Position numbers and translations under genes: made by a program. The notes beneath the pieces were generated by a model that worked only from the letters and a program-made list of their open reading frames with translations, had not been told where the DNA came from and did no database searches. Of a stretch of DNA of 64,000 nucleotides, positions 9,201 to 58,850 are shown piece by piece. Origin of the DNA: Owenia fusiformis (Eukaryota; Annelida; Polychaeta; Sabellida; Oweniidae); assembly GCA_903813345.2 (NCBI GenBank), contig CAIIXF020000011.1, positions 36,824,062 through 36,888,061 on the forward strand. The letters are read 5' to 3'. Numbering within the stretch: position 1 is the stretch's first letter; each line of letters begins with the position of its first letter.

Positions 9201-12200
9201 TAAGGGACGCATTATACAACGTTGCACACCGACGTGTTGCGACCTGAACGAACTGCGAATGAGATGGACGTATTGAAGACTGTTTGTGAACGAAGTAGCT
9301 AATTATTTTTAGGCATATTTCCCGACCACAGCCAGATTGAGCCCGTTTTACGACGTTGTCGTTGGACTTGCAAGAATGGGTAAGAACTAGTTTGGTGTGA
9401 TAGGGGGGTAATGCAAAAGCAAGCTCACCTTTCCATTCTTGAAGATGATAAGACTGAAAGACTTATCAAACCAGCGGTCATATCCTTTACCATGTAGACA
9501 GGTCCTGCCAAATTTGTCCAGAGCACCAATGTCTTTCTGTAATGAAAGGCTTTAAAATGATATATGGTTGAAACAACAGTGTTATAGATTTATGTAACAT
9601 GTGATAGAGAGTGAGAAAATATTTACAGTTAATCAAGCAGTGTGTCCTTTATCATCTAATATCTCATTACAGACATTTGATATCAAATGGTACAACAAAA
9701 CCATTCTAATAATCTTGCAAGACATACACACAATATGGACATTATTTTGGTTATCATTTGGTATTTAAAAGGCATTGGAGTGCTTAAGCCCAGTGATTAG
9801 TGACTGTTACAAAATACAAACATAATGAATAATAAGAAAAACTTATAAATGGACTTCCAAAACTAGACTTAAGCATTGATTCAGAAAAATGGTTGGTTGA
9901 AAAAAATTGTTGAAAAATGGGCACCACTAGAAATGATAGGAGGTCAATAAATTCTGAATTGTTTCAGTTAATAACTGATGGTACCTTTAATAGAGGACGC
10001 TTAAATAAAATAAAATATTAAAATAATGTACGAGTACAAAATGTGTAATCAAATTCAACAGCCAAAACAAAAGCTTATTTTTAGTAGTGTTATAGTTCTT
10101 TATATACTAACACTGCCATTTAAAACAGCCAAATGCCCATTGAGAGGATCCTATGAAGACAGGAAAAATAAATAAATAAATTTTAAGAAACTTTTTCATA
10201 TCAAAGCTTAGAACATGATCTTAATTTTTGTTTTAAGCATCATCCAATAACAAAATAGAACCATGTTACATTTCAACCACCAATCATCAAATTTCTTATT
10301 TCTGATAATACTAGCTATAAAAGCAATAGGTTGGATATATAATTCTCAAGGGGATGCTGGGAAAGATTTTGCATTTTCCCATAAGACAAAGCAGGGTTAT
10401 GTAAGGGGTATAAGCGATGTGGCTGGAACTTTGAGAATTGAAATGTGCTGCTGGTAAGAGCAGGGTGTAACATAGCATTTAACTGTGTTCCTTATTTCTT
10501 CAATCTTTTTGAACATGCCTTTAAGTATATGTGTAGTGAAGTACATTGGTATAATAGCCAGAACATAAATGCAACATTAACCAAATTATTCCAACAATTG
10601 TCCTTAATTAAATAAAATACCTTGAGAGCTTGTCTCTGAAATAAAAAGATAGCTTATGATGACATAAATTTGTATTTATTGATATAACTACAAGTACATA
10701 AATTCTGTAAATGCCACAAGACGTGACAGGTATTCAGTGAAACTGAAATATTTTGGACAGAGGAAAGGTGAACTAAACTTTTCAAAAATGCAGTCCATTA
10801 ATGTAAGAAATATATACAATAGTAATCTTTATCATGCCAACAAACTGATGTTTTGAACATTTAAAATCTGCACTGACCGGGTCAAAACCATGTTCTTCCT
10901 CATCAAGAGACACAAAGAACGCAGCTTTTTCGACAGCATCAAGAGACGTCTTGTTGACACCCTTGGAGAAATGTTGCTTCCTGGCCTTGGCCCATGGGAT
11001 ACGATCGCCAGCTGTCATAGCGGCCAACTTCTCCTCTCCTTCGACTGGCTCAGATTCATCGTCTAAGATTTTCTGGAGGGACCTTTAATGACAAACATCA
11101 GCATAAGTACATTACTTTGTATCAGCACAATATTTAAATTGGAATCAAAAGAGTTTAGAAGAAATGGCAATTATCACCTTATTTTTGGCATACGTCATAC
11201 ATGTACTCATGCTACAAGAGATGTCACTGATAGCTGGTTTTGTTCCGACCTGCAGAACTAGATAATGGCAACTCCGCGGAGTAGCAAATCCCAACGAACA
11301 AAATATCAATTACCGAATTCCAATCAATTATACTCATTACTTTGGTTGAAAATGAAAAAATTAGATTTTAGAATTGCGAATTCCTGCAAAGCAGCCATTT
11401 TGAATTTTCTGAGGTACAAATCTGAAAAATAATACCATAATTGTGATCTACTCCAAAATTCCTTCAATTTGAGTATAATATAGCCATACTTTGAAGGGAT
11501 CGAAAAATTATTGCGAAATCGTACATTAGACGGCCATTTTGAATTTTACGAGGCTCGAATCAAAAAAAAGATACAATATTTGCAATCTACTCTTAATTGC
11601 CTTTCATTTGAGTATAATAAAGCTATACTTCAGAGAGATCTAAAAATTAGCGAAAATTTCTGTTTTCCTTTCCCCCCATACATGGCCCCTGGGGGTCAGG
11701 ATGAAAAACACGGAATATATGTGAAATAGATAAATGTTGTGAATACACTACCGAAATTTCAAACAATAATATTAATTACTTTGGTTTAGAATGAAAAATT
11801 TATGATTTTTGTGAAAAAGTCCCGTCAGTTTTAAAGTGGCGGCCATCTTGAAATTTTTTTTTTTGCGTAAAACTATTCACCAATATACATCTTTCCACTA
11901 AATATGAAGAAAATCTGTCAACTAGTATTTGAGTTATCTTCCGGACAGACGGACGGACTGACTGACTGACTGACTGACTGACTGACTGACGGACAGACGG
12001 ACGGAGGGCTTCACTATATCCCTTACGAACTTCGTTCGTTGGGATAATTAGGCTCTCAAGTAGGTTTGGTTTAGGAATAAGAAGAGCCAACAACTCAAAG
12101 GTTTTAAATTAATCTAATATGCACAGTCACTCTGTTCTGAAATTGTTCCTTTCTGAAGCCAAATCTTTCTAATCGAACTGTTCCAATTATAGATTATACA

Positions 12201-15200
12201 TTTACTCACACTTCTATAGATTATATATGTACTCACACTTCTATAGATTATACATTTACTCACACTTCTATAGATTATACATTTACTCACACTTCTATAG
12301 ATTATACATTTACTCACACTTCTATAGATTATACATTTACTCACACTTCTATAGATTATACATTTACTCACATTTCTATATACTATACATTTACTCATAC
12401 TTCTATAGATTATACATTTACTCACACTTCTATAGATTATACATTTACTCACACTTCTATAGATTATACATTTACTCACACTTCTATAGATTATACATTT
12501 ACTCACACTTCTATAGATTATACATTTACTCACACTTCTATAGATTATACATTTACTCACACTTCTATAGATTATACATTTACTCACACTTCTATAGATT
12601 ATACATTTACTCACATTTCTATATACTATACATTTACTCATACTTCTATAGATTATACATTTACTCACACTTCTATAGATTATACATTTACTCACACTTC
12701 TATAGATTATACATTTACTCACACTTCTATAGATTATACATTTACTCACACTTCTATAGATTATACATTTACTCACACTTCTATAGATTATACATTTACT
12801 CACACTTCTATAGATTATACATTTACTCACATTTCTATATACTATACATTTACTCATACTTCTATAGATTATACATTTACTCACACTTCTATAGATTATA
12901 CATTTACTCACACTTCTATAGATTATACATTTACTCACACTTCTATAGATTATACATGTACTCACACTTCTAGCTCACAAGGCAGAAGAAGTCTTCCCTT
13001 GTAATGCACATAGACCTTGTAGTATCTCCCCTTGTGGTAGACACAAACATGCTTGCTGTCCTTGTAGTGGACCAGTTGATCTGAAATTAACATAATAGTA
13101 TTTATGGTTCATTCAAGGGGCTTACCAGGACATTTTCAAATCATCTATAACTTTGTTGTAGATTTAAAGTTTTAATGCCATCTCGCCGGATTTTTCACTC
13201 TCTTTTTTGATGGCTTATAGTTATAGTCTACTGTAAAAGGTATTTACATTTAACAGTTCTTTTAGTTAATGATCATTCAGAACAATTTACTAAAACAATT
13301 TACTTAATACATTCACCTTTTCCACAAGAAATAAATCCTTACCCTAAATGAGCAGCAAAGTGCTGCCACCTATAGAATAGCTAGATTTGTTCAGTATATG
13401 TCCAATCATTCATTCAACTTTTAATTTATTGTTGAATTAGAAAACTACTGCTCATTCTTACCTGTTTCAACTCCAGGTATTCTCGTTGTATTAAACTGTC
13501 TTTCATACTGCCAGGAACACAGAGGCACAGTCTTATTCAATTGGATCTACAAAGACATATAAGAGTATGTACATAGTTGTATTAAACTGTCTTTCATACT
13601 GCCAGGAGCACAGAGGCACAGTCTTATTCAATTGGATCTACAAAGACATATAAGAGTATGTACATAGTTGTATTAAACTGTCTTTCATACTGCCAGGAAC
13701 ACAGAGGCACAGTCTTATTCAATTGGATCTACAAAGACATATAAGAGTATGTACATAGTTGTATTAAACTGTCTTTCATACTGCCAGGAGCACAGAGGCA
13801 CAGTCTTATTCAATTGGATCTACAAAGACATATAAGAGTATGTACATAGTTGTATTAAACTGTCTTTCATACTGCCAGGAGCACAGAGGCACAGTCTTAT
13901 TCAATTGGATCTACAAAGACATATAAGAGTATGTACATAGTTGTATTAAACTGTCTTTCATACTGCCAAGAACACAGAGGCACAGTCTTATTCAATTGGA
14001 TCTACAAAGACATATAAGAGTATGTACATAGTTGTATTAAACTGTCTTTCATACTGCCAAGAACACAGAGGCACAGTCTTATTCAATTGGATCTACAAAG
14101 ACATATAAGAGTATGTACATAGTTGTATTAAACTGTCTTTCATACTGCCAGGAGCACAGAGGCACAGTCTTATTCAATTGGATCTACAAAGACATATAAG
14201 AGTATGTACATAGATGTATTAAACTGTCTTTCATACTGCCAGGAGCACAGAGGCACAGTCTTATTCAATTGGATCTACAAAGACATATAAGAGTATGTAC
14301 ATAGTTGTATTAAACTGTCTTTCATACTGCCATGAACACAGAGGCACAGTCTTATTCAATTGGATCTACAAAGACATATAAGAGTATGTACATAGTTGTA
14401 TTAAACTGTCTTTCATACTGCCATGAACACAGAGGCACAGTCTTATTCAATTGGATCTACAAAGACATATTAGAGTATGTACATAGTTGTATTAAACTGT
14501 CTTTCATACTGCCAGGAACACAGAGGCACAGTCTTATTCAATTGGATCTACAAAGACATAGAAGAGTATGTACATAGTTGTATTAAACTGTCTTTCATAC
14601 TGCCAGGAGCACAGAGGCACAGTCTTATTCAATTGGATCTACAAAGACATATAAGAGTATGTACATAGTTGTATTAAACTGTCTTTCATACTGCCAGGAG
14701 GCACAGTCTTATTCAATTGGATCTACAAAGACATATAAGAGTATGTACATAGTTGTATTAAACTGTCTTTCATACTGCCAGGAACACAGAGGCACAGTCT
14801 TATTCAATTGGATCTACAAAGACATATAAGAGTATGTACATAGTTGTATTAAACTGTCTTTCATACTGCCAGGAACACAGAGGCACAGTCTTATTCAATT
14901 GGATCTACAAAGACATATAAGAGTATGTACATAGTTGTATTAAACTGTCTTTCATACTGCCAGGAACACAGAGGCACAGTCTTATTCAATTGGATCTACA
15001 AAGACATATAAGAGTATGTACATAGTTGTATTAAACTGTCTTTCATACTGCCAGGAACACAGAGGCACAGTCTTATTCAATTGGATCTACAAAGACATAT
15101 AAGAGTATGTACATAGTTGTATTAAACTGTCTTTCATACTGCCAGGAACACAGAGGCACAGTCTTATTCAACTGGATCTACAAAGACATATAAGAGTATG

Positions 15201-18200
15201 TAAATATATATCATGAACTATACTATAGTTTTTGCTTACAAGATTTATTTCATAGGTGCAGGTAAATCACATTTTGGCGTTAAACGTGCCTGAAAATATA
15301 TAATAAAATTCTAAACAGCAGCTAGTATAGATAAGTAGATAAGTCTATGCATGTTTTGTGTTCTATGTTATGTGGAACCAATAAAATTACCTCTATGAAA
15401 ACCTGGCTTACGTACACTCTCTGTTGAATGCCCAAAAATTAAATACATCTAAAACTTCCAAAAAATTACATAACATTCTTTAAAGATGACCACTTACTGG
15501 TTTCAGTTCCTCCCTATCCTGTAAACGTCTAAAGGACAGGAATGTGTAGATGACATTAGCTGCCCTAGCGACTTGTACAGTAGTGGGGTGAATGAACACT
15601 GCATCTACGCCATAATAGTTGCTGTTCACCATTAGGGGAGCACGGCCTCTCAGATAGACATATTCTTCCCACCAATCAGACACCTAGAAAATAAATGAGA
15701 GATAAAAAATGAAAATCATACATATTTCAGATTTATTGGTCAGATATGAAATATGGAGCAAATTCTAGTTATTTTGTATAAATGGTGGGATCAAAATTGA
15801 CTTTTTAGTAACTTTAAAAGTATATGACAAATTTTTAATAATTAATTAATTTTGTAACGGTGACCTTAAGCAGATAAAGGATTGTTGAAACAAAGAATTT
15901 TTCAGACCAAAACCTGTGACAGGGTATTTTAAGTTCAATTTATAATACATGTTGTATATGATAACATTGTTATATTTAATCAGAACACTAAACACAACAT
16001 AAATGAGAAATTTTACCAGTAAATTTTCTATTAATTACAATACAAACCTATTCCATGACATATGCTTACTCCCCTTATTTGGAGTAATTGGCAAGTCTAA
16101 AAAACACCCCTTTATAAAAAGTGGACTGGCCCAAGTGGCCAATATCGATCCCCAACTCATTATGTATTCATATTTAATACGCTAACAAAATAATAAATAA
16201 CCTCCATTTTCCCAAAGGCGGGGAGGCTGGGTGGGCCTCTGGTCATGGAATAGGTTTGTATTGTAATTAATAGAAAATTTACTGGTAAAATTTCTCAATT
16301 ACATACAATCCAACCTATTCCATGACATATGCTGAATAAAAAGTTAAGGAGGTGGGGACCTCGTTACTAAAAGTACAAAAGAACTATATTACCATCCTAA
16401 TGAGATGTCACCCAAAGAATAGTACATGTACCATTACCCCCATCTGCTAGTTGGATCCAAGACGGAGGCTGTTACATGTCCAACTGGAGACTGTTATGTC
16501 CTATCAGAGTGAGCAGTCTTAGCCATTTAAGGGTAATGACCAACTCCTATGAATAGAGACTGGTTAACCAAGAAAGGGCCGTTTAAACCAAACGAGGTAA
16601 CCGTTGCAGTTCTTCAAGGGTCCAGGTCACAAGCTAGTTGAGTTGAACCCTTCTGCAAAACAGTCGAGGCCAAGCTTCCCACGTGAATCCATCTGCAGAT
16701 ATATAGTGAGTGAAGAACACTTACGTCTAAAAGTTGCAGAGAGTGCCAGCTAGTACCACCGGGCCCAGCTTGTGCATGCCTTTCTCCAGTACTGTCACAT
16801 CTCTGAGGTAGTAACTTGTGAAGGTGTTGTGGGATGCCCATGAACAGGTCTTGAAGAGTGCTGTTAATGAGGCATTGGCTTGTAGAGCTAGTGAGGAAGA
16901 TATGGCTCTTGTCTCATGTGGTCGTATCTTCCCTTGTAACTTGCTTTCTTCTGAGGCATTCTTGTAGACATAGTTCAACAGTTGTTTCACCCAACTAGAG
17001 AGAGTGTTAGGGTGTACATCAGAACTGCATCCTTTCTTGAAGGGGATGAAAAGTCTATTCCTGACTCCTCTGATAGGAACTGTGGCTTGAAGATAATATC
17101 TTAGGGCCCTCACAGGACATAAGAATTTATCTGGCGTTTCATTTCCAACGAAATTAGCTAGAGCCTTGATAGTGATTGGTTGGAATCTGGACTGTCCTTC
17201 TGCGCAATTCAATGATTTCGGCAGGAAACCAACAAAAGGGAAAAGTACCGCTTCCAAGTTGTTTCTAGTCCATTGTATACGCCTAATGTCTATGGCATGG
17301 ATGTCAGAACGTCTTTTCCCTGAAGCCAACAGTAGAAGGAAAAGTGTCTTCCACGATACATGTTTGAGATCAGCTGTCGACATTGGTTCGAAGGGAGGTT
17401 TGGTTAACTCGTGTAGTACAAACACTAGGTCCCACTTAGGCATCAGATCTTTAGGCTGAGCATCTTCTAATTTGAACGAATGGATCAGATCAGAGATTTC
17501 TTGAGTCGACGAGAGTGATGTGCCACTTGAATGTTGAAGGACTTGATTGATGACAGTTCTATAACCTTCAATGGTACTCACTGTTAACTTCTTTACTGAA
17601 TGAAGATAAAGTAAGAAGTCAGCTATTTCTGGAACAGAGACTGTGCAGGGATCCAGATTCCTCTCAGAACACCAAATAGAGAACTTCTTCCATTTGGCAT
17701 CATAGACTCTGTTGGTGGAAGGTCTTCTAGCATCTGATGCGATTCTTTTTGACACTTGTGTTGAAAAACCCTTCTGAGTGAGAGATTTCGTGAGAGTTTG
17801 CAAGCGTGAAGATGGAAAAGTTCTGGATTTTGATGGAAGATCTGACTTCTTGGCATTTTGAGAAGTTTCTCCAATGGGGGGATTTCCCTTGGATAGTCCA
17901 CTAGAAGATCTAAAAGTTCTGGGAACCACGGCTGATTCTGCCATTTTGGAAGGATTGCTAGAGCTAAACAGTCGTGATCCTTTATCTTTTGTAGAACTAA
18001 TCCTATCACTGGCGTGGGGGGATAGATGTACAGATGAAGATTTTGCCAGCTTAGGGATAGAGCGTCTGTTGCCCAAGCTGCTTGATCTTGTATTGGTGAG
18101 ACATACACTGGTAGTTGGTTGTTGTAGCATGTCGCCATCATGTCTAGATTTGGAGTTCCCCATATCTTGAACATCTGTTTGACAACTGCTGGATGTAAGG

Positions 18201-21200
18201 ACCATTCTGTCGCAACTATCTGATTTCCCCGGCTCAACAGATCTGCTCTTCGATTCAGTCGACCTGGCACATGTCTTGCGCGAACGGACTTGATGTAAAT
18301 CGGCCCATAACCATATCTGTCGAGATAACTCTGTCAGTTTTGCTGACTGTGTTCCCCCTTGTTTGTTGAGGTAGGTTGTCGCAGTTGTGTTGTCTGCACA
18401 AATTAACACCATCTTTCCTTGGAGGTGAGTCTGAAAGTGTTGAAGGGCTTTCTGTATGGCTTTTAGTTCCAGCCAGTTTATGTGGTTGTTGGATTCTGAT
18501 TGGGACCAGTTTCCACAGCACTCTTTCGATATGTTCAGATCCATGTGAGCTCCCCACATCGCTGTTGAAGCATCTGTGAATATTGTCACTTCTGGTGAAA
18601 ATGGAGCTAAAGTCATCCCTTTCTCCAGATGCTGGCCTTGATTCCACCACAACAGGTCCAATCTTGCAGTACGATCTACTGTTATCATCTTGTCCAATGG
18701 ATCTCTGAGTTGAGACCAATTCTGAGACAGGCATTGTTGGAGGAACCTCATGTGTAATCTCCCCAGTGGGACTTGTTTCTCTGCTGATGCCAGTAATCCC
18801 AGAAGAGACATCCACTGCTTGGCTGTTGCTCGACTTTCTGTGAGGAACCAGTCTGTTAGGTGTAGAATTTTGTCTATTCTGTCCTGGGGGGGATAGGACA
18901 TCCCTAGATGAAGGTCCCACCGTACACCTACATAGTCGAAGATCTGCAACGGAATCAACTGCGATTTCTTGTGATTGATGATGAAGCCAAGGTTTTCCGT
19001 CACCGTCATCACAATCCGTAGGTGATCTGAGACTTCCTGTGGCGATGCTCCTCGGATTAACCAATCGTCTAAATACCGGTGGAGTTTTATCCCGAGCTTG
19101 TGGAAGAATGAGGCTAGGGGTTCCAGGATCTTGGTGAATATCATCGGTGCTGTTGCCAGACCGAAAGGCAGTACTCGAAATTGCAGAATTTTCCCGTTGA
19201 CGACAAAACGGAGATACTTCCGGAAGTTCTCTTTCATCATTATATGAAGATAAGCATCCCGAAGGTCCAAGGATACTGCCCATTCGCCTTGTTGGAAGGA
19301 GGTCATGTACTGCTGTACTGTTTCCATTTTGAATTTGGGAACTATTAAGACTTGATTTAAAGTTCTCAAATTGATGACGGGTCTGTCTTCTCCATTCTTC
19401 TTCTTGACCAAGAATAGATTGCTGTAAAACCCTGGAGAATGTCTGTTTAGAACTTCTTCTACAGCATTCTTTTGCAGAAGGTCCTCTACCACTCTGCTGA
19501 AACGAGCTGCTTTGCTCGATGTTGAAGACTCGAACTGGTTTGGTTCGGTGCATAACGTCACAGTTGAATTCATCTGTGGGATGTATCCTACCTGGATCAT
19601 CTTCAGTATAAACGGATCTTCCGTTAACAGCTTCCAATTCGGAAGGAAAAACATCAATCTTCCCCCTACAGGTCCTGGATAAGGAGGAATTGTGAAGATT
19701 GGGATCATAGAATGGTCACTTCTTGGAGAATCTGTTGTCTTTGTTGAAGTGCTTACCACCTTTATTGTCGTATTTCTTCTTGGAATCACGAAAATCTGAT
19801 TTGGATTTGTCTTGTGATTTGGACCAATCTTTGTTAGAAGATTTCTTCCTGTAGTCAGGCCTGGATTGGCGTTGGGACCTGTCTTTGTCTTTACTAGATC
19901 TAGAACTGGACTGGGCCAAGGTAACTAGTGCTTGGTTTGTCAGATTTGAGGAGGCTGAGTCAACCAAATCTTTAAGTTGTGACTCTGGATACAAAGTGGT
20001 AGATGTATGCTCAACTGGTAGTACCCTCATAGATTCGCGGAAGCGTGTTGGTACTTGTTCTTGAATCAGATCACGTTGAAGTAATGCTGAGTTGGTGAGA
20101 GTCTTGAGAATACCTTCAGTAGCGGTAACAGAGGCTGTCGAACCCCTAAGGAGTAAATCGCCCATGGAATCTAACAACTGGGTAACTAGTGGATCCGTGT
20201 TGTTGGATAAGTGTGCTGTGAGTTGGGTAACTAACTTTGAAACAGAACCTATATACCACTCTGAGTACACCAAAGGTTGAAGGACAGCCCTCAAGTTCTC
20301 TTCGAGACCCTTCCAGTTTTTATTGGAGAGTTGAGTTTTAGTATCAGCATTCTTGAAGAAATCACTGAAGGTTTTATCATTTGGGACTAAGTTTCCAAGT
20401 GAATTATTGAGTTTGAGGGGCCGTACGACTGAATCATCTCCCTTGGCTAATCTATAATTTGAAGATTTGATTCTGAAGAGTTTTCCCTTTGTGTTGAAAC
20501 CGGAAGTGGCAGATGAGATCTGATTATTGATATTCTGCACCAACTGATGGAACACTGGGGGACAAGGTAATGAAGCTTTAGTGACTGAAGATTCATCAAC
20601 TTTCTGGAGAGCTACCCTAGTCAAAGATTCTTTAGAATTAGTGGAGCTGTTGACTTGGTCAATTTCTAAGGCTGATATGGTTGAATCCCATAAGGAACGA
20701 ACTAACAAGACCGCTTCTTCTTCAGAGGACTTAGATTTAGACGGCTCGTTGTCATCAGAATCCAAAATACGAGGTTTAGAATCTGAATTTTGAGATTGTG
20801 AAATTTTGGAACTAAAATTGTTGATAATAGATCGTGAATTCTGAGTTCCCTGACGTGAAGTCCCGGAAATCCTACTCGGCGAACTATCAGAGGGTCTATT
20901 AGTGTGAGAGTAGGAGTGGTGAGACAATCTAGAAGGGCTTCTAAGCTGAGAAACGGGAGATCTTGAACGATTTCGAAAAGTTGACCTACTTACGTCCACG
21001 TGGTGTGTGGCGGAATAGTTGTAGTCACGAAATTTGGTGTCATTTCGGTGCGAATCGTTACCTCGTTTTCCCGTCTCTACGGCCTTCTTACTGCTCCGGG
21101 GGGACTGCTCTCTCGGAAGCGAGTATTCCGAGTTGTGTAAATAGCTTGAAGACGGGCTTCTACGGTCAGAAGGAGGTCTCGTTGGTGGCCTGTTTCCAAG

Positions 21201-45876: not shown

Positions 45877-46029
45877 CAATATTTTGATGAACAGCTGAGC
45901 CCAAAAGAGGCGTATAAGGTACTGTTTTGCATAATTTAAGTCCATGTAATGTTAGAAAATGATATCGTCAGTGTGTTTGCTGTTTGATTAACCATTCTTA
46001 TGATTTACGAAACCGTTTTGTATCACGTA

Positions 46030-46419
46030 AAGTCCATTTCACTGCTTCAGTGCGTCAGTAGAACGGCAAAAATAAGAAATTGGGAGACCATTGTGCAATA
46101 ATATATGGAAAAGTATATTCATAATATACATGAATGACATTTGTATATATCAGATTTTTTAGTTTTTTGTGCAATAAGCCTGTGCCGTCTTGTAATTTGA
46201 AGAATTTCAGGCATGTTAATCTTATTGAAAATAACATGGCAGAGAAGCATCCAAATATAAGAGGCCACACACTTTCTAAGCCAAACTAGAAGCAATCCAA
46301 GATATACAAATGTCATTCATGTTCAATAGGAATATATTTTTCCATATATTATTGCAAAATGATATTTTGATTTCTTATTTTATAGCTTTTACTGACGCAC
46401 TTTAACAGTGAAATGGACT
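46030..46419. mobile_element. 390 bp foldback MITE
   Basis: AGTCCATTTCACTG ends the left side and CAGTGAAATGGACT the right. The arms extend about 120 bp, including TGCGTCAGTA, AATATATGGAAAA and ATGAATGACATTTGTATAT. Confidence 0.85.
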
Positions 46420-47095
46420 CTAGTTCCAGACAAAACAAAAATTTGACTGAAGACTCAGTTTTGAAAAGTTTCAGAGGTTGGCCCCTGAGTTCCTTCCTGT
46501 TTTTTTTGTTATGAAGCCCCCCCCCCACGAGTGGGCGAAGCTCCTCATACTATGGATCGGGTTCGCACCATTCACGTGACTACCGGTCTTGTTAGCCTAG
46601 CATACAGTGGTGACCAAAAATAATTGATAAGTCATATATTTGGCATATTTTCTTGAATTTTAACATTTAGGGGAAATTGTCCTATCATCGCACAGGTACT
46701 CTGGAAATCTACTGACAGTTTCAAAAATGATTACTTCAACTTACTTTGAGGTTATGAAACGAAAAATCAACCTTTCTTCTAAAATTTAAATCATGTTTGA
46801 CATTTACAATCTTCGAACGCTAACACTTTAAGACCCCTTAGACTCGCATCTGTGGTGGTCCTAATTATCGCATAGTCATCCTAATTATCGCACAGTTGTG
46901 TTTTGAGTGTTATTTCATGATAGTGGATACATTTCACTGTTAGGTACAGCTGGAAAATAACATTTTGGTAAAAATTGCTACCTGCACATGTTATTTTCTG
47001 GTACAAAATAATGTATGAAGGCATGTTTCAATTTCCTTGCTTTTTCAGGAAAGTATGATTACATTGTCTTTTAGAATATCTGGTAGGAGTTCAAT

Positions 47096-49090
47096 GTTTT
47101 GTATTGTATTGTATATCTTTATTGCCCATAATAAAATGGAGATACAATTTATATTTACAGTGATGTAAAATAAAAGATAAAAGTACAAAATTATGACAAA
47201 ATTATATACATATTAGACTATAAAAACTATTCAATGAGCAAAATGCTCGTACGGTTGAGTTAGGCACTGTAAGTGTCTCAAACACAGTCACTGTTAGACC
47301 GTGCTTTATATTGTTTGAAAATAATTTGTGATATCTCTTTTAAGAGAACAATTGCATTTGGATTTGGCACAACATTTATTCCAAGAATTGTATTGAACGA
47401 AAACTCGAAATTGTGCTTACTAAAACATTCCTTAAGTTCTTGCCTGTATATGGAGTATTGTGCAGCAGAGCAATGCATTAAGAAATGTTCAACCGTCTCT
47501 AACTGGAATGAGTTACAAAGTTTACATCGTTTACACTGATCTTCACCTCCTCTATTCTTATAGTTTAAGTTGTGCTCACCTACCAATAGTCTAAACATTA
47601 GTTTACAAGAGTCTGTTGCCCGCGGAAAATTTTGAGCAACGATCCACCATATATTAGGATCCAATGTAATACAAACATTTTTTCTAAAATCTGCAAGACT
47701 GCTGTACATGATTGACTGAATAGACGTTCTATAAATTTGGCTGTGTGAAATATTGGCGAAAACTAATCTTTTCCATTGGCCTTTACTTATCACAATATTA
47801 CAATCTAACATATTCTGAATAATCTCTCTAAATCCAAACCTCATAGCACATTGCAACATTGATGCCATGGGTGAAAATATTTTGGTATTTTTAAACCCTT
47901 CATGTAAGAATTTTGTCAAACGTACTACAAGTAATCTTTTGTAAACATTCTTATATGATAACTGAATAAGACTCCACAAGAACATCATTCTTAAAAAATC
48001 TATATACAAGTCGATGTCTAACCACCCTAGGGTCACTGTAGAAATGGAATTGCTAGCAGATCTAGGCAAGGACTGGATCCTTCGCCCAATATCACGTTGT
48101 GTTTTATTAATAGTTTCAATGTCCTTCTGCTGATAATTCACAACTGGGGCAGCATAGGTCATACATGGAATTGAATAAGTTTTATACAGTTTAGATGCAG
48201 AAATTGGAGTTAAACCTCCACATTTATTTCCAATACCAAGTAATGAGTAAAATTGCTTTCTTCCCTTAGAACATTTTTCTTCTACATATGTTGAGACATC
48301 ATTCTTGGAGGACAGAGGTACACCTACATGTACTTGATAATCTGATTTTTCAATTGCCTCACCTCCAATACTCAAACTGTGATTAACATGTAAGTTTTTA
48401 TTGTCATTAAAGGTCATATATGCACATTTTTGTGGATGGACTTGGTACCTCCATTTGTTGCTATGATGTGTAAGATGATTTAGAAGGGTTTGCATTGACA
48501 TATATGAGTTTGACAGAATACACATATCATCGGCGTAACATGGACACACACATTTGATATCTGCTACAGATGCACCGGTATGAACTTGCATCATAGTGTC
48601 AATTAAATCTGACATATACAATTGGTAAAAAAGCATAGAAAGAACCCCTCCCTGGTGTACTCCTTGTAATACAGGGAAGGTTTCAGAGCATATTTGGCCT
48701 ACCATTACAGCACATTCATACATTTTATAGCTAAGGTACAATATTTTCCATAAATGGCCTCTAATACCGCAGTCGTACAGTTTAACCAGGAGACCATCTA
48801 TCCACACTGTATCAAATGCCTTTTTAATATCACATATTGTAATAATTAACATTTGGCCTTGTTCAACATTGTGAGCTATCGTTTCTTGTACCAACAAGGA
48901 GGTATGAACACTCGAGCATTTTTCAATAGACGCACCTTGGAGAAATGGGATAGCCTTTACAATTGGAGTTTTAATACGTAATAAAATAATGTTATCAAAC
49001 AGTTTGCGTAACATGGTCATTAAAGTAATGCCTCTCGAGTTATCTCTGTATAAGGGGTCTTTCCCCTTTTTATGGGAACTCCAGGAAATT
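47096..49090 (-). mobile_element. 5'-truncated LINE (non-LTR retrotransposon)
   Basis: Contains an intact RT-C-terminal ORF and a 3' end with a short pentanucleotide tail (TACAA-type repeats, 47098-47115). The endonuclease domain is absent: homology in frame begins with KKGKDPLYRDNSRGITL at about 49070 and a stop precedes it. It interrupts a larger inverted-repeat element. Confidence 0.88.
47278..49020 (-). CDS. LINE reverse transcriptase fragment (580 codons)
   Basis: RT motifs: CDIKKAFDTVW (about 63-73), GVHQGGVLS (120-128), and CYADDM with catalytic YADD at 162-165. A cysteine/histidine cluster CKRCKLC...HFLMHC at 496-517 is typical of the C-terminus of jockey/I-like LINE proteins. The frame is intact but starts inside the RT domain, so this copy cannot be a full element. 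The exact clade is not determined. Confidence 0.9.
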   Translation of the reverse strand: MTMLRKLFDNIILLRIKTPIVKAIPFLQGASIEKCSSVHTSLLVQETIAHNVEQGQMLIITICDIKKAFDTVWIDGLLVKLYDCGIRGHLWKILYLSYKMYECAVMVGQICSETFPVLQGVHQGGVLSMLFYQLYMSDLIDTMMQVHTGASVADIKCVCPCYADDMCILSNSYMSMQTLLNHLTHHSNKWRYQVHPQKCAYMTFNDNKNLHVNHSLSIGGEAIEKSDYQVHVGVPLSSKNDVSTYVEEKCSKGRKQFYSLLGIGNKCGGLTPISASKLYKTYSIPCMTYAAPVVNYQQKDIETINKTQRDIGRRIQSLPRSASNSISTVTLGWLDIDLYIDFLRMMFLWSLIQLSYKNVYKRLLVVRLTKFLHEGFKNTKIFSPMASMLQCAMRFGFREIIQNMLDCNIVISKGQWKRLVFANISHSQIYRTSIQSIMYSSLADFRKNVCITLDPNIWWIVAQNFPRATDSCKLMFRLLVGEHNLNYKNRGGEDQCKRCKLCNSFQLETVEHFLMHCSAAQYSIYRQELKECFSKHNFEFSFNTILGINVVPNPNAIVLLKEISQIIFKQYKARSNSDCV

Positions 49091-49654
49091 CTGATATTTC
49101 ACACTTTCTATTTTTCCAAATTTTCTTTCAAAGTTTCCAAACAACACAGGAGCTACCGTTGACCTGTTCCCAGGTTTACTAAATAAGACAATGTAATGAT
49201 ACTTTCCTGAAAAAGCAAGGACATATACACATGCCTTCATACTTAATTTTGTACCAGAAAAATAACATGTGCAGGTATAGCAATTTTTTACCAAACTGTT
49301 ATTTTCCAGCTGAACCTTAATAGTAGATATATACGTCATATGCTATAATCATGTTTCTATCAGTTTTAGTGTAAAATATCAACAAAATCTACATAATTCA
49401 TTTACTTTTCTGTCTTTATTTGGAGGGGGTCAAACTTTGTCAGAAGAATTTCACTTCTTGCGCAATCGCATTCATGACAATAGCGGAAGTAAATAATTTC
49501 AAACAAATGAAGAGATATTTCTAAATATATTAATAAATAATGAAGATTTGGAGTCATGTTGAGCTGGTGTTATGAACACTGGTTTAAAAGTTGTACGAAA
49601 CATATTTTAGCTATTTAGGACAATCGTGCGATAATTAGGACAGTTCCCCTAATG

Positions 49655-51311
49655 TCCCAAACTCCCCCAAACTGCAGAAAAGTATACACCGTAAATCATA
49701 TTTCCGAAAATGATTGTCCAAGGCTTCATACTAGCGTATGCATAATGCATTTGTCATGAGTTTCAAGAGCTGAAATTTCGCTAAAATGAAGTAAGGGTAA
49801 TCTCCACCAGGACTGTTTAGCTGGTTAGCTTTAAATGGTTGAAGTGCTCAGAAGCAAATAATTCATATGTGCAAAATATTCCAATAATCTGATGATCTGA
49901 TCACAAAAAGTCAATGGAAAATTAACCTCAAACTATAATAATACATGAGAACTTCAAAATGAGCGGTGCCATGCTTCCCTTTTTTGGTAATATTTCAAAA
50001 AGATTTAGAGTATGTGTTTTTAGGATTATCTTGAAGAAAAATCAATTTTGATTGATTAAAACGTGAAACACGTGATTAATCTCATTTAAAAGTAAACAAA
50101 AAAGACCAATAAGGAAAAGAGGTATCAAAATGTTCTTTTCGAGTGTTGCATTGTGGGTGATTATTCGAGAACACATTTCAATAATAGTATAATTTGTTGG
50201 GGAATGTTTCATTATTGCCATAATTATGATGAATTCCATTTTCTATTGAATTATCTCAACATACAACAAAATTAAGCAATACCGAGAAGTGGTCACTACC
50301 GGATCTCCTATTATATGGTACCAATTACTCAGATGCGAGTAGGTAGTTACCAGTTTCGCCACCAGGTGGCTGATTCGGGGGAAATAAAATTGCAGGGTAT
50401 TACAAAATTCCTTTAAACTTGAATATTCATCAGTTTTAGTGGTCCACTTTTCATATTACCCTTATGTGTCTGATAGTTATACAAATTAAAATAAGTCCAG
50501 GGAAAGAAAATATTATCTGCCTAACATAAGAAAAGATATTTCACTTTTTGTGATTTTAAAACATGGGGTCTAAGGGGAATCTCCCCGACCTAGAAGTCAC
50601 ATTTTCAAAGAAAATAAAATTTTCAAAGTTGATAAACGCTTTTCTAAACCACATTTCTAGATAATTTTACATGTAGATTCCAAATATGACATCAGTTTGA
50701 ATTTTTAATGACGTAAATCAAGATTATTTCTACTCGCATCTAGTCTATTGTGCAAATATAAGCCAGATATGATTTATAGATGCAAGTTGATGATACGTCT
50801 CGTAGTAGGTGAAGGTGTTGGGCGTTACTCAGAACCATATGTAAATAGAGTTTGTCAATTTTATCAAATATATGCAGCATATCGTAGAATAGAATAAATT
50901 TCAGCTAGAAAATTCATGGAAAATTTCAATTGACGATTCTCTGCCAGATTACACTCTGATCCATTGATTGGTCAATGTGACGTGCACCGGAAGAAATAAC
51001 TTTTGTTTCAATTACAAGCATTCCTCTATTGATTCACATGTTATTTTCAAATAGGAATCACTCCATCCCCACATTGTCTCCATCTTCCAGTTTTGCACAA
51101 AGAGTGCACTAATGAACCTAGAAAAGACTGACGAGAAGATTTCTTTTGTGAAAATTGACAGGTCACTGAATTTTCTCGTTTTTTATACATTTTACAAAAC
51201 AAATCTTCTCACTAGTTTTTTCTAGGCACCGAAGACTGGCTTTAAAACGGTTCCACTTCTACCCAATGATAAGGACAACTATTCCAAATTATAGGAAGTG
51301 TTTCTGAGGAT
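49655..51311. other. RAB3IP upstream region
   Basis: No gene recognised. AT-rich sequence leading to the RAB3IP 5' leader; the promoter is not identified. Confidence 0.4.
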
Positions 51312-51385
51312 CAGAGGGGCACCTCAGTAGGAAGAACAGCCTCTTGATATTAAGAGGGGTGCCTCAGTAGGTAGAAGAGCCTTAA
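51312..51385 (+). repeat. ~40 bp duplication in the RAB3IP 5' leader
   Basis: AGAGGGGCACCTCAGTAGG at 51313 is repeated as AGAGGGGTGCCTCAGTAGG at 51353, the second copy ending about 14 nt before the start codon region. Confidence 0.75.
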
Positions 51386-51394
51386 ATTGAAACA

Positions 51395-51498
51395 ATGGCA
51401 GAACACCCAGAAGCATCCCGCCAAGATAGTGGTATTGGGAGCCCTGGACTTGCATCGCCTCATCAGAATGGACACCTTGCCTCAACAGAAGACCCAGG
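51395..51498 (+). CDS. RAB3IP: RAB3IP-like exon 1 (start codon)
   Basis: ATG in the context AACAATGG. Encodes MAEHPEASRQDSGIGSPGLA through TEDP plus two bases. Donor GTAAGT at 51499. Low-complexity polar N-terminus. Linkage to exon 2 is by phase and position; the N-terminus itself is not strongly diagnostic. Confidence 0.8.
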
Positions 51499-54400
51499 GT
51501 AAGTCCCACTTATCTTGTCCTAATCTCATTATATCACCACCAGAAGTGGTGAAATATTGGTATTTTTTGTGGACAGTGATTGGTGTCTGTAACAGCGACT
51601 GTAACAAATGGTGGTCTGTGTCTGGTATTTTTTTGTATTGTCACACCAATAATAATGAATAACATAATAATATTATGAGCGAGTCCTGGGAAACTCAAAT
51701 GTTTATCACAAGTTTCATGGTACATGACATGTATTGATTGGTTGTTCATTATGCTTTGATTTCAATTTGTGGAGTCTTTAATTTCTACAATTTTATTAAA
51801 ATACATGCAAACTGCTAACTGTATGACATATTCTCTTTTAACAATATGTCAATTTCAGTGACCATTTTGAGAAATAATGGCAGTCTTGTCTGATATTTGA
51901 CAAGATGTTCAATGGTATTTTCTAAGCCATTATTTAGTCAATTCCCTACCCTTTGCATTCGTTCGACTTCACTTCTTAAAAGAGAGCTTCGTCTTCACTC
52001 TTTCAAACTAAAATAAACCTGTGAACTCACCGCGCCAATCAGTGTTCGTCGGCCAAATATGACCGACGTTCTATATATAGTCATTCCTTCTGACGACATC
52101 GTTGAGCCCGGAATTGACCAATGACATGCGCATATTTAATTAGAACGCATTTGGCGTATGTTTCTTCAAGCTCGCTGAATGGTGGAAGAAAGGCCTGCGC
52201 ATAGGTCAGAAGTGATTTATTACCCAAACTGTCACCGGTACCCGTTGTGGGGGCTGCTATACTGTAATATGGTCTCTACTAGGCAGAGTGTAGTTTAACT
52301 AGACTCTGCACGCAGGGTATCAATTCCCAGTCCAGTCAATCTCAATTAGATAACCTGAATGAACCGCTCTACCTCAAAGAAAGTCCTGATTTTGGTTGAA
52401 AGATTTTATGTAGTGGTATTCATTACCTAGTATAGATAAATTTTTACATATACAATGTATTCTGTTGAATAAGAGATTAGTTTGGCAAAAATACAATGTA
52501 TAATCTAAAATGCCTATTTGCATGACTTGAAATGCTGTTAATGCCAAACAAACACTTTCATGCAAATAGATTGTTCCGTGTATGACATGACTAGCTGGGT
52601 AAATGGAAACCTAAGATAACAGAGTGACTCAACCTCAGATAACTCTCATTATAGTGAAAGCAGGCTACATTGTACCATAGTAATTAAATCACACTAGAAA
52701 GCTTGAATATATAAGGACTCTTTCCAATAGTGATTTCACTTCTTTAAAAGAGAGCTTCGTCATGTTAATATGAGACTGTTTCTCAGGGTTGAATGAAGAT
52801 TTATTTATTCTGACCTTTGGATAATTGGATATTTTGAATATACAGGAATAAAGCAATCAAGGAATTCAGTCTCACCCATACACATTTATTTGTAAGTATT
52901 AAAAAGCATAGTATTATCATCAATGACTGAAACTTACACTCATAAAACTGACTCTAGATTATGTAATATCTGAATCTATTTTTCATTGTGCATGCCAACA
53001 TAACTTATGAATCTACAAGTTTGTTGTACAACACATTGAGTCTTATATTGAACACTTTGGAAAACTGTTAGGTGATCGTTTTAAGATTTATCCTAACCCC
53101 ACAATAGAGCTGTAAAATAAGTCCCCTTGATCAGATATCCAGTTCATGTACATGTCTATGCCATAGGCACCATTCTGATTTATCACCATCTCTCTTTATC
53201 AACAGCTTGTTAGATAATGCCAGTCTATTCCAAGGGATACAGTACTGCCTGTGCACTGCCAGATTAGGGGGGGGGGTTGCATCAAGAAAATGGACCTCGC
53301 ATTTTCAAAATTTGGTCCCAATTTTTAGTTTTACGGGAATTCTTTTTAGATCTGAACTTTCTCCCCCCCATCATGATATCATTTTTACAGGTTTAATTTA
53401 GGAAACCTATTATCTACTTTTGCAGTTACTTCGCCTGTCTCATTGCTAGCAATGCCTGTATTATAAGTTATAAGGACAACATTTTAATGAAGAATTATAG
53501 AGTGGTTGTAAAAATCTCTGGCCTATCTCTTGGAGATATTGATTTGTTGAAACTGAAACTGAAGTATATGAGATGTAAATTGGATTGTCAGAAATATGAC
53601 ATGACATGTTATAAATTGGGATGTTATCTGATTATTGGGATCAATATCCAGGACGAGGAACAGTTTCAAGTATTAACGTGAAGAGCAGTTATTTTGGATC
53701 TCTATAGACCTTTTGCTGAATTGCATTGTTATAGTCTCCAACCTTTTTGTGGTGGTGGTTGATGTTTGGTATTTGGCATTCAGTGGTTGGTGTTTGGTGT
53801 TTGTAACAAATAACAGGTGGTGACATTTTGTGTGCCTTGTTAAAATGATTGTTTATGATTTATCATAACGTGTGTGCTTCTTCCACATACATGTACATGT
53901 TATTTTGAAGTTGAACCATTACATGGGAAAGTGCCTTTTATACCACTTTACTTAACTAAGATATAGAGGTTCTTATATGAGTACCTGTGCAAGATCGTCC
54001 ATTCTTGATGAGCTTTGATAATGTTTCTTTATCGAAACATTATCAAAGCGAGTCAAGAATGGACGATATTGCACAGGTACGAGTACAAGAAAGTTTTTCT
54101 CATATGACTCTGTATTATGCCATATTTTCACCATTTTATCATAAAACTGAGTGATAAATAGCTTCAAATTAATTGATCTTCATCTTTCAATTCTCCCTTA
54201 CGCGATTCGCTCTTTGAATCAGAACGTTCGCAAATATGTACTGAAAAAGCACTCAAAAAGGACAAAATTTGATTGGTCAATATTTTCTCACTATGCATTT
54301 CGCGTAGCTATTTGCGTGACCCGAAAGTTCTAAATCAAACTAATTACGCAATTTTGTTTTTACACCTGCACGCTAAATAAAACAATGACAACATCGGAAG

Positions 54401-57400
54401 TATTCTTTTTGTCATTGCTTTAATTGTTAGTATACCGAGTTTAATCAATAAAAGATTGTACAATGAACAACAAAATTCGGAAACGAGTACTATAGATATG
54501 CTTTCGAACCACTGAACAGAGTGACCTAGATAATAGCGACGTTTCTTCTTTGGTCTACTGCTCAGGTTATTTGTTGGTTTTCAACGTAACTCTATGATGT
54601 AATTTGAAGATGAATACTTTTATTCAGTTGTTGCATCGATGTTGCAGTTTGTAGTGCGGTAAGATTGGCATGAAAGTATTGAAAGTCGAATGAAATTGTT
54701 TTTTCCAATATGGCGACTAGTCAACTGATCATGTGACCTTCTCTTCCGGAATATTTTCTCACTTTTCAATCATCGTTTTCACCACGCTATGAATCAATAC
54801 AATGAAAAAATAGCTGTTATATTAAGATTAATAAGAGATCAATCGTTTCTAATAATTTTTTCTGTACCCTCGTACGGGAATATGAACGAATATATCGTTT
54901 GAAAAATAGGTGTGAAAATCCCCATGTTAAACCTATGAGGGAAAACAAGGAAGTATAAATTTGTTCCTCCGCGAACTGCATCATGGGAAATATTTTGACC
55001 TTATAAGGAAAGATTTTCGCGTCTCCTCGTTTGAAGAGGGAACAGCGATTTCGAGAATTGTTATGACGTCATAACAACATTGAAGAAAATACATAGATAC
55101 ATGTGGCAAAAAGCTCCATTGTTATGACGTCACAGCTTAGTTTTGTATAAGTAGCATGGATACTCATAGCAACGGTGTATCCGTTGCCATGTTGTTGATG
55201 TTTATAGACCAGTGATGTCACAAGTAAATCTCATCTTGCACGTGTGACTTTTAGGATGAAAGATGGCAATATCTTGCATGGGGTAAAGATGGCTGTATCT
55301 TTGTTAGTCATATGAGAAAGTAGTTTATTGTTTACAAACACAAACAATGATATACAGTATGGCAATGCCTTTAGGACATCACATTTACATATGTTATTAC
55401 TTGTAAGAAAAATCGTGTACCAGTTCATGTATTTACATGATGTTAACACTTTTTGATGAGATAAAAAAAATAACAGAATAGAGACACAGATAATAATTTA
55501 AATAGCTCTTCGAGGTTTTCTAGGTCAGTACACTCATATTGGTTGGACACCCTATATTTCTAGTTCAGTATTCTAGTATTGATTGGACACCCTGTATATG
55601 AAGTCAGTATTCTTATATTAATTGGACACCCTATATTTCTAGGTCAGTATTGTTATATCGATTGGACACCCTGTATTTATAAGTCAGCACACTCATGCCA
55701 ATATGTCACCCTGTATATTTTAGGTCAGTATAATCATATTGATTGGATACACTGTATTTCTAGGTCAGCTTACTTATATTTATGGACATCATGTTCTTCT
55801 AGTTTATTGAACATTCTGTTTTTCTAAGCCAGTATACACATACTTATTAGACGCCCTGTATTTAAATATCTTAGTCAGTGAACTCCTTGATTGGACACCC
55901 TGTATTTCTATATCTAAGTCAGAACACTCATATTGATTGGACACCCTGTATTTCTATATCTAAGTCAGTACACTCATTTTGATTAGACACCCTGTATTTG
56001 TATTTCTTAACACTCATATTGATTGGATACCCTGTATTTCTATATCTAAGTCAGAGCACACGTATTGATTGGATACCCTGTATTTCTATATCTAAGTCAA
56101 TACACTCATATTGATTGGACACCCTGTATTTCTATATCTAAGTCAGAACACTCATATTGATTGGATATCCTGTATTTCTATATCTAAGTCAGAGCACTCA
56201 TATTGATTGGACACCCTGTATTTCTATATCTAAGTCAAAACACTCATATTGATTGGATACCCTGTATTTCTATATCTAAGTCAGAGCACTCATATTGATT
56301 AGACACCCTGTATTTCTATATCTAAGTCAGTACACTCATTTTGATTAGACATCTTGTATTTCTATATCTAAGTCAGTACACTCATTTTGATTGGACACCC
56401 TGTATTTGTATTTCTTAGTCAGAATACTCATTGATTGGACACCCTGTATTTCTATATCTAAGTCAAAACACTCATATTGACTGGACACCCTGTATTTCTA
56501 TATCTTAGTCAAAATACTCATATTGACTGGACACCCTGTATTTCTATATCTAAGTCAGTACACTCATTTTGATGGGACACCCTGTATTTCTATATCTAAG
56601 TCAAAACGCTCATATTGATTGGACACCCTGTATTTCTATATCTAAGTCAGAACACTCATATTGATTGGACACCCTGTATTTCTATATCTAAGTCAGTACA
56701 CTCATTTTGATGGGACACCCTGTATTTCTATATCAAAGTGAGTACACTCATTTTGATTGGACACCCTGTATTTCTATATCTAAGTCAGTACACTCATTTT
56801 GATGGGACACTTCTATATCTAAGTCAGTACACTCATTTTGATTGGACACCCTGTATTTCTATATCTAAGTCAGTACACTCATTTTGATGGGACACCCTGT
56901 ATATCTATATCTAAGTCAGTACACTCATTTTGATGGGACACCCTGTATTTCTATATCTAAGTGAGTACACTCATTTTGATTGGACACCCTGTATTTCTAT
57001 ATCTAAGTCAGTACACTCATTTTGATTGGACACCCTGTATTTCTATATCTAAGTCAGTACACTCATTTTGATTGGACACCCTGTATTTCTATATCTAAGT
57101 CAGTACACTTATTTTGATGGGACACCCTGTATTTCTATATCTAAGTCAAAACGCTCATATTGATTGGACACCCTGTATTTCTATATCTAAGTCAGAACAC
57201 TCATATTGATTGGACACCCTGTATTTCTATATCTAAGTCAGTACACTCATTTTGATGGGACACCCTGTATTTCTATATCTAAGTCAGTACACTCATTTTG
57301 ATTGGACACCCTGTATTTCTATATCTAAGTCAGTACACTCATTTTGATGGGACACCCTGTATTTCTATATCTAAGTCAGTACACTCATTTTGATTGGACA

Positions 57401-58850
57401 CCCTGTATTTGTATTTCTTAGTCAGTATACTCATATTGATTGGACACCCTGTGTTTGTATTTCTAGGTCAGTCCACTCATTTTGATGGGACACCCTGTAT
57501 TTCTATATCTAAGTCAGTACACTCATTTTGATTGGACACCCTGTATTTGTATTTCTTAGTCAGTATACTCATATTGATTGGACACCCTGTATTTGTATTT
57601 CTAGGTCAGTCCACTCATATTCTATGGAAGCCACTGATGTTGTGAACACGCGACTCAGTGACATGAAACTTGAGGAAGGAAACATGCGACGTAGAAGCGC
57701 CTCGATGCTGGAAGTTAAAGATAAAGCAAGTGTCAGAATACATGAGGAGCTTGACAAAGCACAAATGGTAAAATAACTCAACATGTATTTGATGTGTTTT
57801 GATTAATTAGGAGCCTATTGTTGAATTGAAATACGAGAATATATATTGTGAATTCTAATGTGGCTGTGTTTTCCACCTATCAACATTACAGTATCTCTTC
57901 CAAATGAAGATGGTAAAAAATGTAGAAAATTAAAGTGCTATAGAACTCTTGGAACCATAAGAAGTGTTCTACTTGGGAGGTGTTCTATTAACAGAGGTCC
58001 ATTTAATTAAAGTCAGTGTGTCACAAAACTTCTACATGCATTCCACTTACAGAGGTGTATTCTGCTTATAAGTTTCAAAACATACACTACATTTTTTAAA
58101 TTAATATTTTAAGGAATCAAAACTGAAAGATGAAGACAGAGGTCCATTAAATTAAAGTCAATGTGTCACAAAACTTAGAAACTTCTCCATGTATTCCGCT
58201 TATAAGTTTCAATACATTCACTACATTTTTTAAATTAATATTTAAGGAATTAAAGCTTAAAGATGAGGAGGTTGTTAAACTACAGCATGTTAGAGACCAG
58301 ATGGGACTGGAGATTGAAGAACTCACTGCCAGTCTCTTTGAGGTAATACACTAAAATGAACTATGTGTGTCTTTTAGGTTCATATAATATATAATGAAAA
58401 AGTGTCATAGAGTAGAATAGTTCATCTTTGAGAGATATTCAAACTGAAAAGTTTTACTGCATATTCAATATCAAAATAATAGTGCATTCAATATCAAAAT
58501 GATATTGCAGATTGGTCATCGTGAAAATTTACATTTGTATTTCTATTTTTACAAGCTGAGAAGAACATAACCATTTTAACAAGTATTATAAATTAAACCA
58601 CTTGTTTTTTAGATTTATTTATTTTCCTCAAACTCTTAAAATTAGAAGTACTTTCTGTATGGATACTGCGATCAATGTTCTGTATTATTAAGCCTCAAGA
58701 TTTAAGGATGTGTAAAAACAATGGATGTAACTATGTAGGATGATATCTAAATCAGAAATAACTTGATTCCAGGAAGCTAACAAAATGGTTCAAGATGCCA
58801 ATGTAAAGAGGATGCATGCAGAGAAGCTGTTGAAGGAAGCACAAGCTAAG
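51395..58850 (+). CDS. RAB3IP: Rabin8/GRAB-like Rab GEF (RAB3IP/RAB3IL1 family), 5' part only
   Basis: Four exons: 51395-51498, 57605-57767, 58247-58342, 58773-58850, giving 147 residues in frame. Family: Sec2-type guanine-nucleotide exchange factors for Rab8, acting in exocytic and ciliary vesicle trafficking as a parallel coiled coil. Visible evidence: a polar Ser/Pro-rich N-terminus (residues 1-40), then SASMLEV and the coiled coil with ELKLKDEE, VRDQM, EELTASLFEEANKMVQDANV and AEKLLKEAQ, matching the vertebrate Sec2 domain without gaps. The C-terminal region is beyond the window. RAB3IP and RAB3IL1 cannot be told apart here; an invertebrate probably has a single ancestral gene. Confidence 0.9.
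51527..51610. mobile_element. TGTCACCA-family end fragment
   Basis: ATATCACCACCAGAAGTGGT and GTGATTGGTGTCTGTAACAG match the terminal part of the 62063 copy. It lies about 30 nt past RAB3IP exon 1. Confidence 0.6.
53735..53855. mobile_element. TGTCACCA-family fragment
   Basis: Contains GGTTGGTGTTTGGTGTTTGT and CAGGTGGTGACATTTTGTGT-GCCTTG, the same end as 63622-63650. Confidence 0.7.
53981..54080. repeat. 100 nt near-perfect hairpin in RAB3IP intron 1
   Basis: Arms 53981-54028 and 54033-54080: GTACCTGTGCAAGATCGTCC pairs with GGACGATATTGCACAGGTAC, and GATAATGTTTC with GAAACATTATC, leaving a loop of only a few bases. Confidence 0.9.
55520..57621 (+). repeat. 46 bp x ~45 tandem array ending inside RAB3IP exon 2
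   Basis: The unit reads roughly GATTGGACACCCTGTATTTC, then TATATCTAAGTCAGTACACT, then CATTTT. The left third is diverged; the right part is more uniform. The last unit supplies the acceptor TTTCTAG and the first ~17 bases of exon 2 (GTCAGTCCACTCATATT). The block GACACCCTGTA resembles transposon termini elsewhere in the window. Confidence 0.95.
57605..57767 (+). CDS. RAB3IP: RAB3IP-like exon 2 (acceptor lies in a 46 bp array)
   Basis: Acceptor TTTCTAG at 57598-57604 keeps frame from exon 1. Encodes GSVHSYSMEATDVV, then MRRRSASMLEVKDKA, and ends KAQM; donor GTAAAA. The first ~17 exon bases are still repeat sequence from the array upstream. If the upstream exon is not linked, the ATG at 57624 could serve as an alternative start. 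Confidence 0.85.
57991..58266 (+). repeat. Two-copy tandem duplication across the RAB3IP exon 3 acceptor
   Basis: Copies begin with ACAGAGGTCC at 57991 and 58136 (145 bp apart). Both contain the tract CTACATTTTTTAAATTAATA, an AAG acceptor and about 22 exon bases. The first copy's pseudo-exon (from 58114) encodes ESKLKDED, then reaches a stop with no donor; the second copy is the real exon 3. Confidence 0.85.
58247..58342 (+). CDS. RAB3IP: RAB3IP-like exon 3 (Sec2 coiled coil)
   Basis: ELKLKDEEVVKLQHVRDQMG through EELTASLFE, 32 codons, phase 0 at both ends. Acceptor ATTTAAG, donor GTAATA. Very close to vertebrate Rabin8 in this GEF helix. Confidence 0.94.
58773..58850 (+). CDS. RAB3IP: RAB3IP-like exon 4 (Sec2 coiled coil)
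   Basis: EANKMVQDANVKRMHAEK through KEAQAK, 26 codons. Acceptor ATTCCAG. The donor is GTTAAT, a weak match to consensus; reading on instead meets a TAG 12 codons later. Vertebrate proteins continue at this point with an IDVLQ-type block, which I could not find downstream in the window. Confidence 0.88.

Follow-up and report, generated by a model that had tools for sequence, protein, structure and literature searches.

Minisatellite-like duplications of intron-exon boundaries have been reported in the globin genes of amphioxus, where they were named mirages after work on Adh3 (PMC3087553); PGBD5 has been added to the amphioxus genes that carry mirages, and troponin C is cited (PMC3902484). In the globin report, reverse transcription polymerase chain reaction suggests normal splicing, two haplotypes carry 6 and 3 units, and an intron-gain model is proposed (PMC3087553). 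In humans, F7 intron 7 contains repeats of 37 bp, and splicing normally takes only the donor that lies furthest upstream (PMC6627357); long-unit internal tandem repeats occur at exon-intron boundaries of genes in segmental duplications (PMC2812944). Here we describe tandem arrays of this kind in a 64,000-nucleotide stretch of DNA (the window) at 36.82-36.89 Mb of contig C11, 0.4 Mb from the end of this 37.29-Mb contig. Four arrays in two genes, labelled CPT1 and RAB3IP (Rabin8), straddle real splice junctions, a claim of the original prediction that is borne out by Tandem Repeats Finder, self-BLAST and open spliced frames. We consider it probable (roughly 0.7) that these arrays are mirages, i.e. 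tandem duplications that arose in situ, spanned an exon/intron junction by chance and then grew intronward.

The first gene is on the minus strand, and its spliced exons 6-9 match Carn_acyltransf (E-value: 4e-57). The name CPT1 was given in the original prediction and is kept here as our presumption; the evidence reaches to the carnitine acyltransferase family, and the top PDB match is carnitine acetyltransferase. Its features (window coordinates) are as follows.

15498..15683, minus strand: CPT1 exon 6 (186 nt), with an open frame, AG/GT borders and a Carn_acyltransf match
13485..15206, minus strand: CPT1 exon 7 acceptor array, 91-bp unit x 19, from Tandem Repeats Finder (19.0 copies) and a motif listing
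13462..13546, minus strand: CPT1 exon 7 (85 nt), its acceptor being the innermost among 19 copies
12966..13080, minus strand: CPT1 exon 8 (115 nt), its donor being the innermost (first) copy
12188..12972, minus strand: CPT1 exon 8 donor array, 27-bp unit x 29.1, from Tandem Repeats Finder
10878..11082, minus strand: CPT1 exon 9 (205 nt), with an open spliced frame

The 91-bp unit consists of 62 nt from the start of exon 7 and 29 nt from the end of the intron, and the acceptor TTTGTAG/ATCC (the slash marks the junction) is intact in 19/19 copies, the true site included. The 27-bp unit joins approximately 5-7 nt from the end of exon 8 to a GTGAGT donor; among the ~29 units, 26 (including the true one) have GTGAGT and 3 have ATGAGT, and the true donor sits inside the first repeat. 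When the innermost sites are used, exons 6-9 are joined into one open frame. In the joined fragment, an outer acceptor brings in a stop at codon 96 (5/5 tested, out of 18 decoys) and an outer donor a stop at codon 129 (4/4 tested, out of 25). Between exons 8 and 9, window positions 11260-12060 hold an element that combines a GACT-type microsatellite with a diverged 139-bp repeat and is probably a transposon remnant; a similar stretch was spotted by eye in L026, one of the sampled stretches described below.

The second gene is on the plus strand. Its exons 2-4, joined into an open frame by the innermost sites, match Rab-3A-interacting protein (E-value: 3e-26). A Sec2p family search of the genome gave zero matches and missed the RAB3IP gene of the window itself, so no RAB3IP paralogues were obtained.

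55517..57618, plus strand: RAB3IP exon 2 acceptor array, 46-bp unit, upstream of exon 2, from Tandem Repeats Finder
57605..57767, plus strand: RAB3IP exon 2, starting at 57605 or 57610 depending on the AG chosen
57991..58133, plus strand: upstream copy of the RAB3IP exon 3 acceptor region, from self-BLAST
58136..58266, plus strand: true copy of the RAB3IP exon 3 acceptor region, with the first 20 nt of exon 3, from self-BLAST
58247..58342, plus strand: RAB3IP exon 3, with an open spliced frame and a protein match
58773..58850, plus strand: RAB3IP exon 4, with an open spliced frame and a protein match
58872..59118, plus strand: intronic array, 84 bp x 2.9, non-straddling, beginning 21 nt past RAB3IP exon 4

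The exon 2 array comprises 39.4 copies of the 46-bp unit at 55823-57618 and a diverged part with a 40-bp period at 55517-55788; its terminal copy carries 9-14 nt of exon 2, varying with the choice of AG. With regard to the concerted evolution expected of a mirage cluster away from its edges, the outermost copies are among the most diverged (identities of 0.78 and 0.63), yet some inner copies are similar in this respect (0.65 and 0.72). The exon 3 acceptor region has been duplicated once, giving copies of 143 and 131 bp with 83% identity over 143 columns. Of the three small repeats also proposed to lie near exon edges, one was placed, namely the 84-bp array past exon 4.

When the 498-Mb assembly was searched with each multi-copy unit of the window, 20, 19 and 14 matches were found, all within the window. 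As the units match only their own arrays, they were most likely born at the junction. A dispersed satellite or transposon as their source was rejected because no match was found elsewhere in the assembly by this search, which skips very common words. A separate repeat with a 136-bp period at window 62424-63561 resembles, by eye and on opposite strands, positions 1045-1484 of L089 (beside a kinesin exon on contig C1), and looks like a dispersed tandem repeat.

The arrays of the window and those sampled elsewhere in the genome have the structure by which mirages are defined: the unit spans the exon-intron boundary and many repeats keep AG or GT. They share with the amphioxus cases (Adh3, the globins BflGb6 and BflGb9, troponin C and PGBD5) tandem copies of either an acceptor or a donor boundary, many of them with AG/GT, and an authentic junction at one end; the ranges of unit length overlap as well, being 10-160 bp in amphioxus and 27-272 bp here. 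They differ in that mirages were reported gene by gene in lancelets, whereas here 18/485 sampled junctions are straddled, with an acceptor bias. The CPT1 exon 8 array has the same layout as human F7 intron 7, including a true donor in the first repeat; the F7 case is one human locus, while CPT1 exon 8 has ~29 units. The repeats of human segmental duplications are also minisatellites at boundaries with a long-unit bias. They can alter the transcript or form novel introns, while the arrays described here sit on the intron side of an exon whose frame continues normally. The phenomenon is thus already named, with a close analogue in human F7 intron 7; the statement that no named system matches was wrong (PMC3087553, PMC3902484, PMC6627357). 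The frequency, the acceptor bias and an excess of amplification appear to be new here, and apart from the human study (PMC2812944) the papers listed in a literature search included no genome-wide survey of minisatellites that span junctions.

A duplication that carries splice signals is also the starting point of the Rogers model, in which introns are gained through tandem duplication (cited in PMC3087553). The arrays described here differ in that they copy one end of an existing intron, and their units do not contain both ends: each CPT1 array spans only one end of its intron, and RAB3IP intron 1 was observed only at its acceptor end. A Drosophila paper (PMC2891723) reportedly deals with intron sliding or tandem duplication.

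The host genome looks lophotrochozoan rather than cephalochordate, unlike the mirage cases found under that name, and with 12 contigs of 32-62 Mb it may resemble an annelid such as Owenia more than a lancelet. A muscle myosin exon scores 229 bits against the top PDB group, 205 against vertebrate myosin-7 and 205 against one further chain; we take the top group to be scallop chains and the further chain to be squid, presumably. In the muscle myosin gene at C9:37985489-37994854 (L074-L076), approximately 12 separate matches in a row to one myosin-head exon (profile positions ~18-84) suggest a large cluster of alternative exons.

The pattern recurs outside the window. Exon places in the same genome were chosen by Pfam matches alone: Carn_acyltransf (49, after 6 of 55 matches were dropped as lying in the window), Myosin_head (92) and Kinesin (127 of 144 matches, 17 extra copies of one kinesin exon being dropped), for a total of 268; the AMP-binding matches (14 places) were long single open stretches and were not used. 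The sample comprised 153 stretches (L numbers) with 264,407 bases. Splice borders were predicted by script, and 485 of 536 possible borders were above the score cut; they comprise 250 acceptors and 235 donors and belong to 65 gene clusters. After candidates had been read, arrays were found to straddle 18/485 junctions (~4%) in 13/65 genes, at unrelated loci on several contigs. The acceptors are in L005, L028, L048, L052, L061, L077, L095, L098, L103, L108, L127, L129, L130, L146 and L148, and the donors in L126, L129 and L147. Left out of this count were a second array in L127 (its exon was not sampled), two-copy cases in L069 and at the L052 donor, and the L026 donor (~4 exon nt); L124 was scored as straddling by the script and rejected by eye. 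By family, 13/235 kinesin, 3/156 myosin and 2/94 CPT junctions are straddled, and because this split is uneven the genome as a whole may show a rate other than 4%.

In those sampled cases that were read, it is the innermost copy that adjoins the exon continuing the protein. For example, the array at L103 486-3329 (C2:23266345-23269188) contains 18 copies of a kinesin exon region, spaced at 159 bp; every copy has an acceptor and a long exon piece, and the remaining coding exon follows the last copy only. Within 0.5 Mb of contig ends, 4/14 junctions are straddled against 14/471 elsewhere (P 0.001), from two genes only (C6:40.70 Mb and C10:37.15 Mb) and with a cut set post hoc; at 1 Mb the figure is 4/42 (P 0.06). 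The window also lies near a contig end.

Near-identical units make copy number difficult to assemble correctly, and one lancelet mirage appears to be misassembled in the draft genome (PMC3087553). An assembly artefact is nevertheless very improbable here: the copies bear distinct patterned variants, such as the ATGAGT units spaced 216 and 243 nt apart inside the CPT1 donor array, and the same layout is seen at unrelated loci on several contigs.

It had been argued that junctions are overlapped more often than chance allows. This holds for arrays with long units and fails when unit size is ignored. For a comparison with equal visibility, 398 junctions were used and 87/485 were skipped for lack of a flank or second exon. 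Any array covers 18/398 junctions (4.5%), as compared with 24/386 intron points at 40 nt, 25/363 at 120 nt, 20/325 at 180 nt (6-7% over this range) and 14/263 (5.3%) at 200 nt. Since coverage of junctions is no higher than that of nearby intron (5-7%), being a junction does not in itself make a site a hot spot for arrays. The junction falls inside the terminal unit of an array in 16/398 cases (4.0%), the rate at intron points being 14/386 (3.6%) at 40 nt and 5-10 per 263-377 points (1.6-2.8%) at 80-200 nt, which is at most about a two-fold excess. Short units (12-44 bp) give 2 straddlers against 1.6 expected, i.e. no excess. These figures suit a view in which the arrays are minisatellites of the ordinary sort, scattered randomly over a repeat-rich genome, and the window drew notice because three of them hit junctions. 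We regard this view as unlikely, because for units of at least 45 bp there are 16 straddlers against 4.1 expected from how densely array ends occur in flanking intron (conditional binomial P 8e-4), albeit with a size cut set after viewing the data and with predicted exon borders.

The excess seems to lie in amplification rather than in seeding. Among long-unit arrays, at least 2.5 copies are present in 14/16 straddlers and 5/12 intronic arrays (Fisher P 0.017; L058 and the second L127 array are in neither class, and the copy cut was likewise chosen afterwards). Among the five intronic multi-copy arrays, the L089 unit resembles the reverse complement of the window repeat at 62.4-63.6 kb, and the intronic arrays L060 and L022 resemble multimers of shorter units. 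Two-copy duplications, in contrast, number ~4 straddling and 11 intronic by hand reading and with no formal test, which is near proportion and no obvious junction excess. Seeding of duplications at junctions, one of the two explanations offered in the original prediction, is therefore not upheld, and it may be amplification that concentrates at junctions. GC content is weak as a cause (P 0.056).

A process linked to splicing or transcription, such as an R-loop, a nick at the exon edge, or cDNA from a lariat-exon intermediate ending near the branch point, could create or amplify duplications at junctions. It would accommodate the excess of multi-copy long-unit arrays, the acceptor bias (15/250 acceptors against 3/235 donors, Fisher P 0.007) and the slight clustering by gene (P 0.044), three genes holding two or three straddling arrays each; one kinesin gene has three (the L129 acceptor, the L129 donor and the L130 acceptor). 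The two-copy counts speak against it, as does the exonic share of the unit, which averages 0.56 with no clear departure from an even spread (15/18 arrays, Kolmogorov-Smirnov P 0.11), so that clustering of breakpoints at one set position, for instance the branch point, is not demonstrated. On balance we find such a process unlikely.

The decoy sites were examined for signs of use or conservation. AG or GT is kept in 73/74 of the decoys found (17/18 sampled arrays, L095 being left out), mostly with scores near that of the true site, although the search for decoys relied on resemblance to the true site and so was biased towards intact copies. Use of the neighbouring decoy leads to a stop in 14 of the 16 sampled arrays computed; at L127 and the L129 donor the frame stays open, and decoy use there could give a longer protein. 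For L103 there is no stop result from the script, and a TAA in the unit was read by eye. In a column-by-column comparison of five arrays, AG is invariant in CPT1 exon 7, L061 and L103. Intact sites, invariant AG columns and stops (including all those tested in the CPT1 arrays) count in favour of functional decoys, whose copy number would tune the share of unproductive transcripts. Many other columns in these three arrays are equally invariant, however (e.g. 14/32 in L061). Splice-site columns vary in the other two arrays, 3/29 CPT1 donor units having lost GT and the RAB3IP sites varying, and AT-rich DNA yields stops by chance. Functional decoys, the other explanation originally offered, are thus not demonstrated, and we rate them as improbable.

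The two halves of the unit diverge to about the same extent. Divergence is lower in the exonic half in 8/17 arrays, higher in 8 and equal in 1 (Wilcoxon P 0.63), and pooled values are 115/6395 (0.018 per site-copy) for exonic and 77/3263 (0.024) for intronic positions (P 0.065); some exon/intron splits in this comparison are rough, and those of L077, L130 and L147 are wrong by eye. Outer copies are therefore not clearly evolving as exons. Homology anchored in the exon was considered as a cause of amplification and rejected, the halves showing no consistent difference. The decoys would fit young, mostly neutral copies; no clear sign of their use or conservation was found in these comparisons, and a regulatory bank of sites is not established by them.

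Mirages formed in situ would arise as follows. A tandem duplication happens to span a junction, its seeding probably being blind to the junction. The extra copy would lie intronward, and the innermost site would retain the short exon, with splicing presumably continuing via exon definition: the innermost copy is expected to be the true site because it leaves the exon short, with a boundary on either side. Exon definition probably also explains why outer sites that are nearly identical are tolerated. Unequal exchange or slippage could then lengthen the array while the outer copies drift as intron. Donor arrays are perhaps purged more than acceptor arrays, as competing downstream donors may be more disruptive.

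Three points weigh against this account. First, the tolerance of decoys is an assumption. Second, the commoner amplification of long-unit duplications at junctions than in introns would not be expected of a fully blind, neutral process. Third, nearly all decoys are intact and AG is invariant in three of five arrays, which could also mean that decoys are kept. We also see a small chance that junction-spanning duplications, once formed, are preferentially amplified, chiefly at acceptors, through some factor linked to splicing or transcription at exon edges; many genes of this lineage would then carry a copy-number-variable bank of decoys that could affect expression and feed new exons and introns.

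If approximately 4% of junctions and one fifth of genes are affected, as in the sample, mirages in this genome would provide a natural test of how a site is chosen among up to ~26 near-identical sites. If the sample rate holds, the genome would allow exon definition to be tested against first-come selection. The arrays also supply many young examples for testing the birth of introns and exons from tandem repeats, which has hitherto been argued from few genes.

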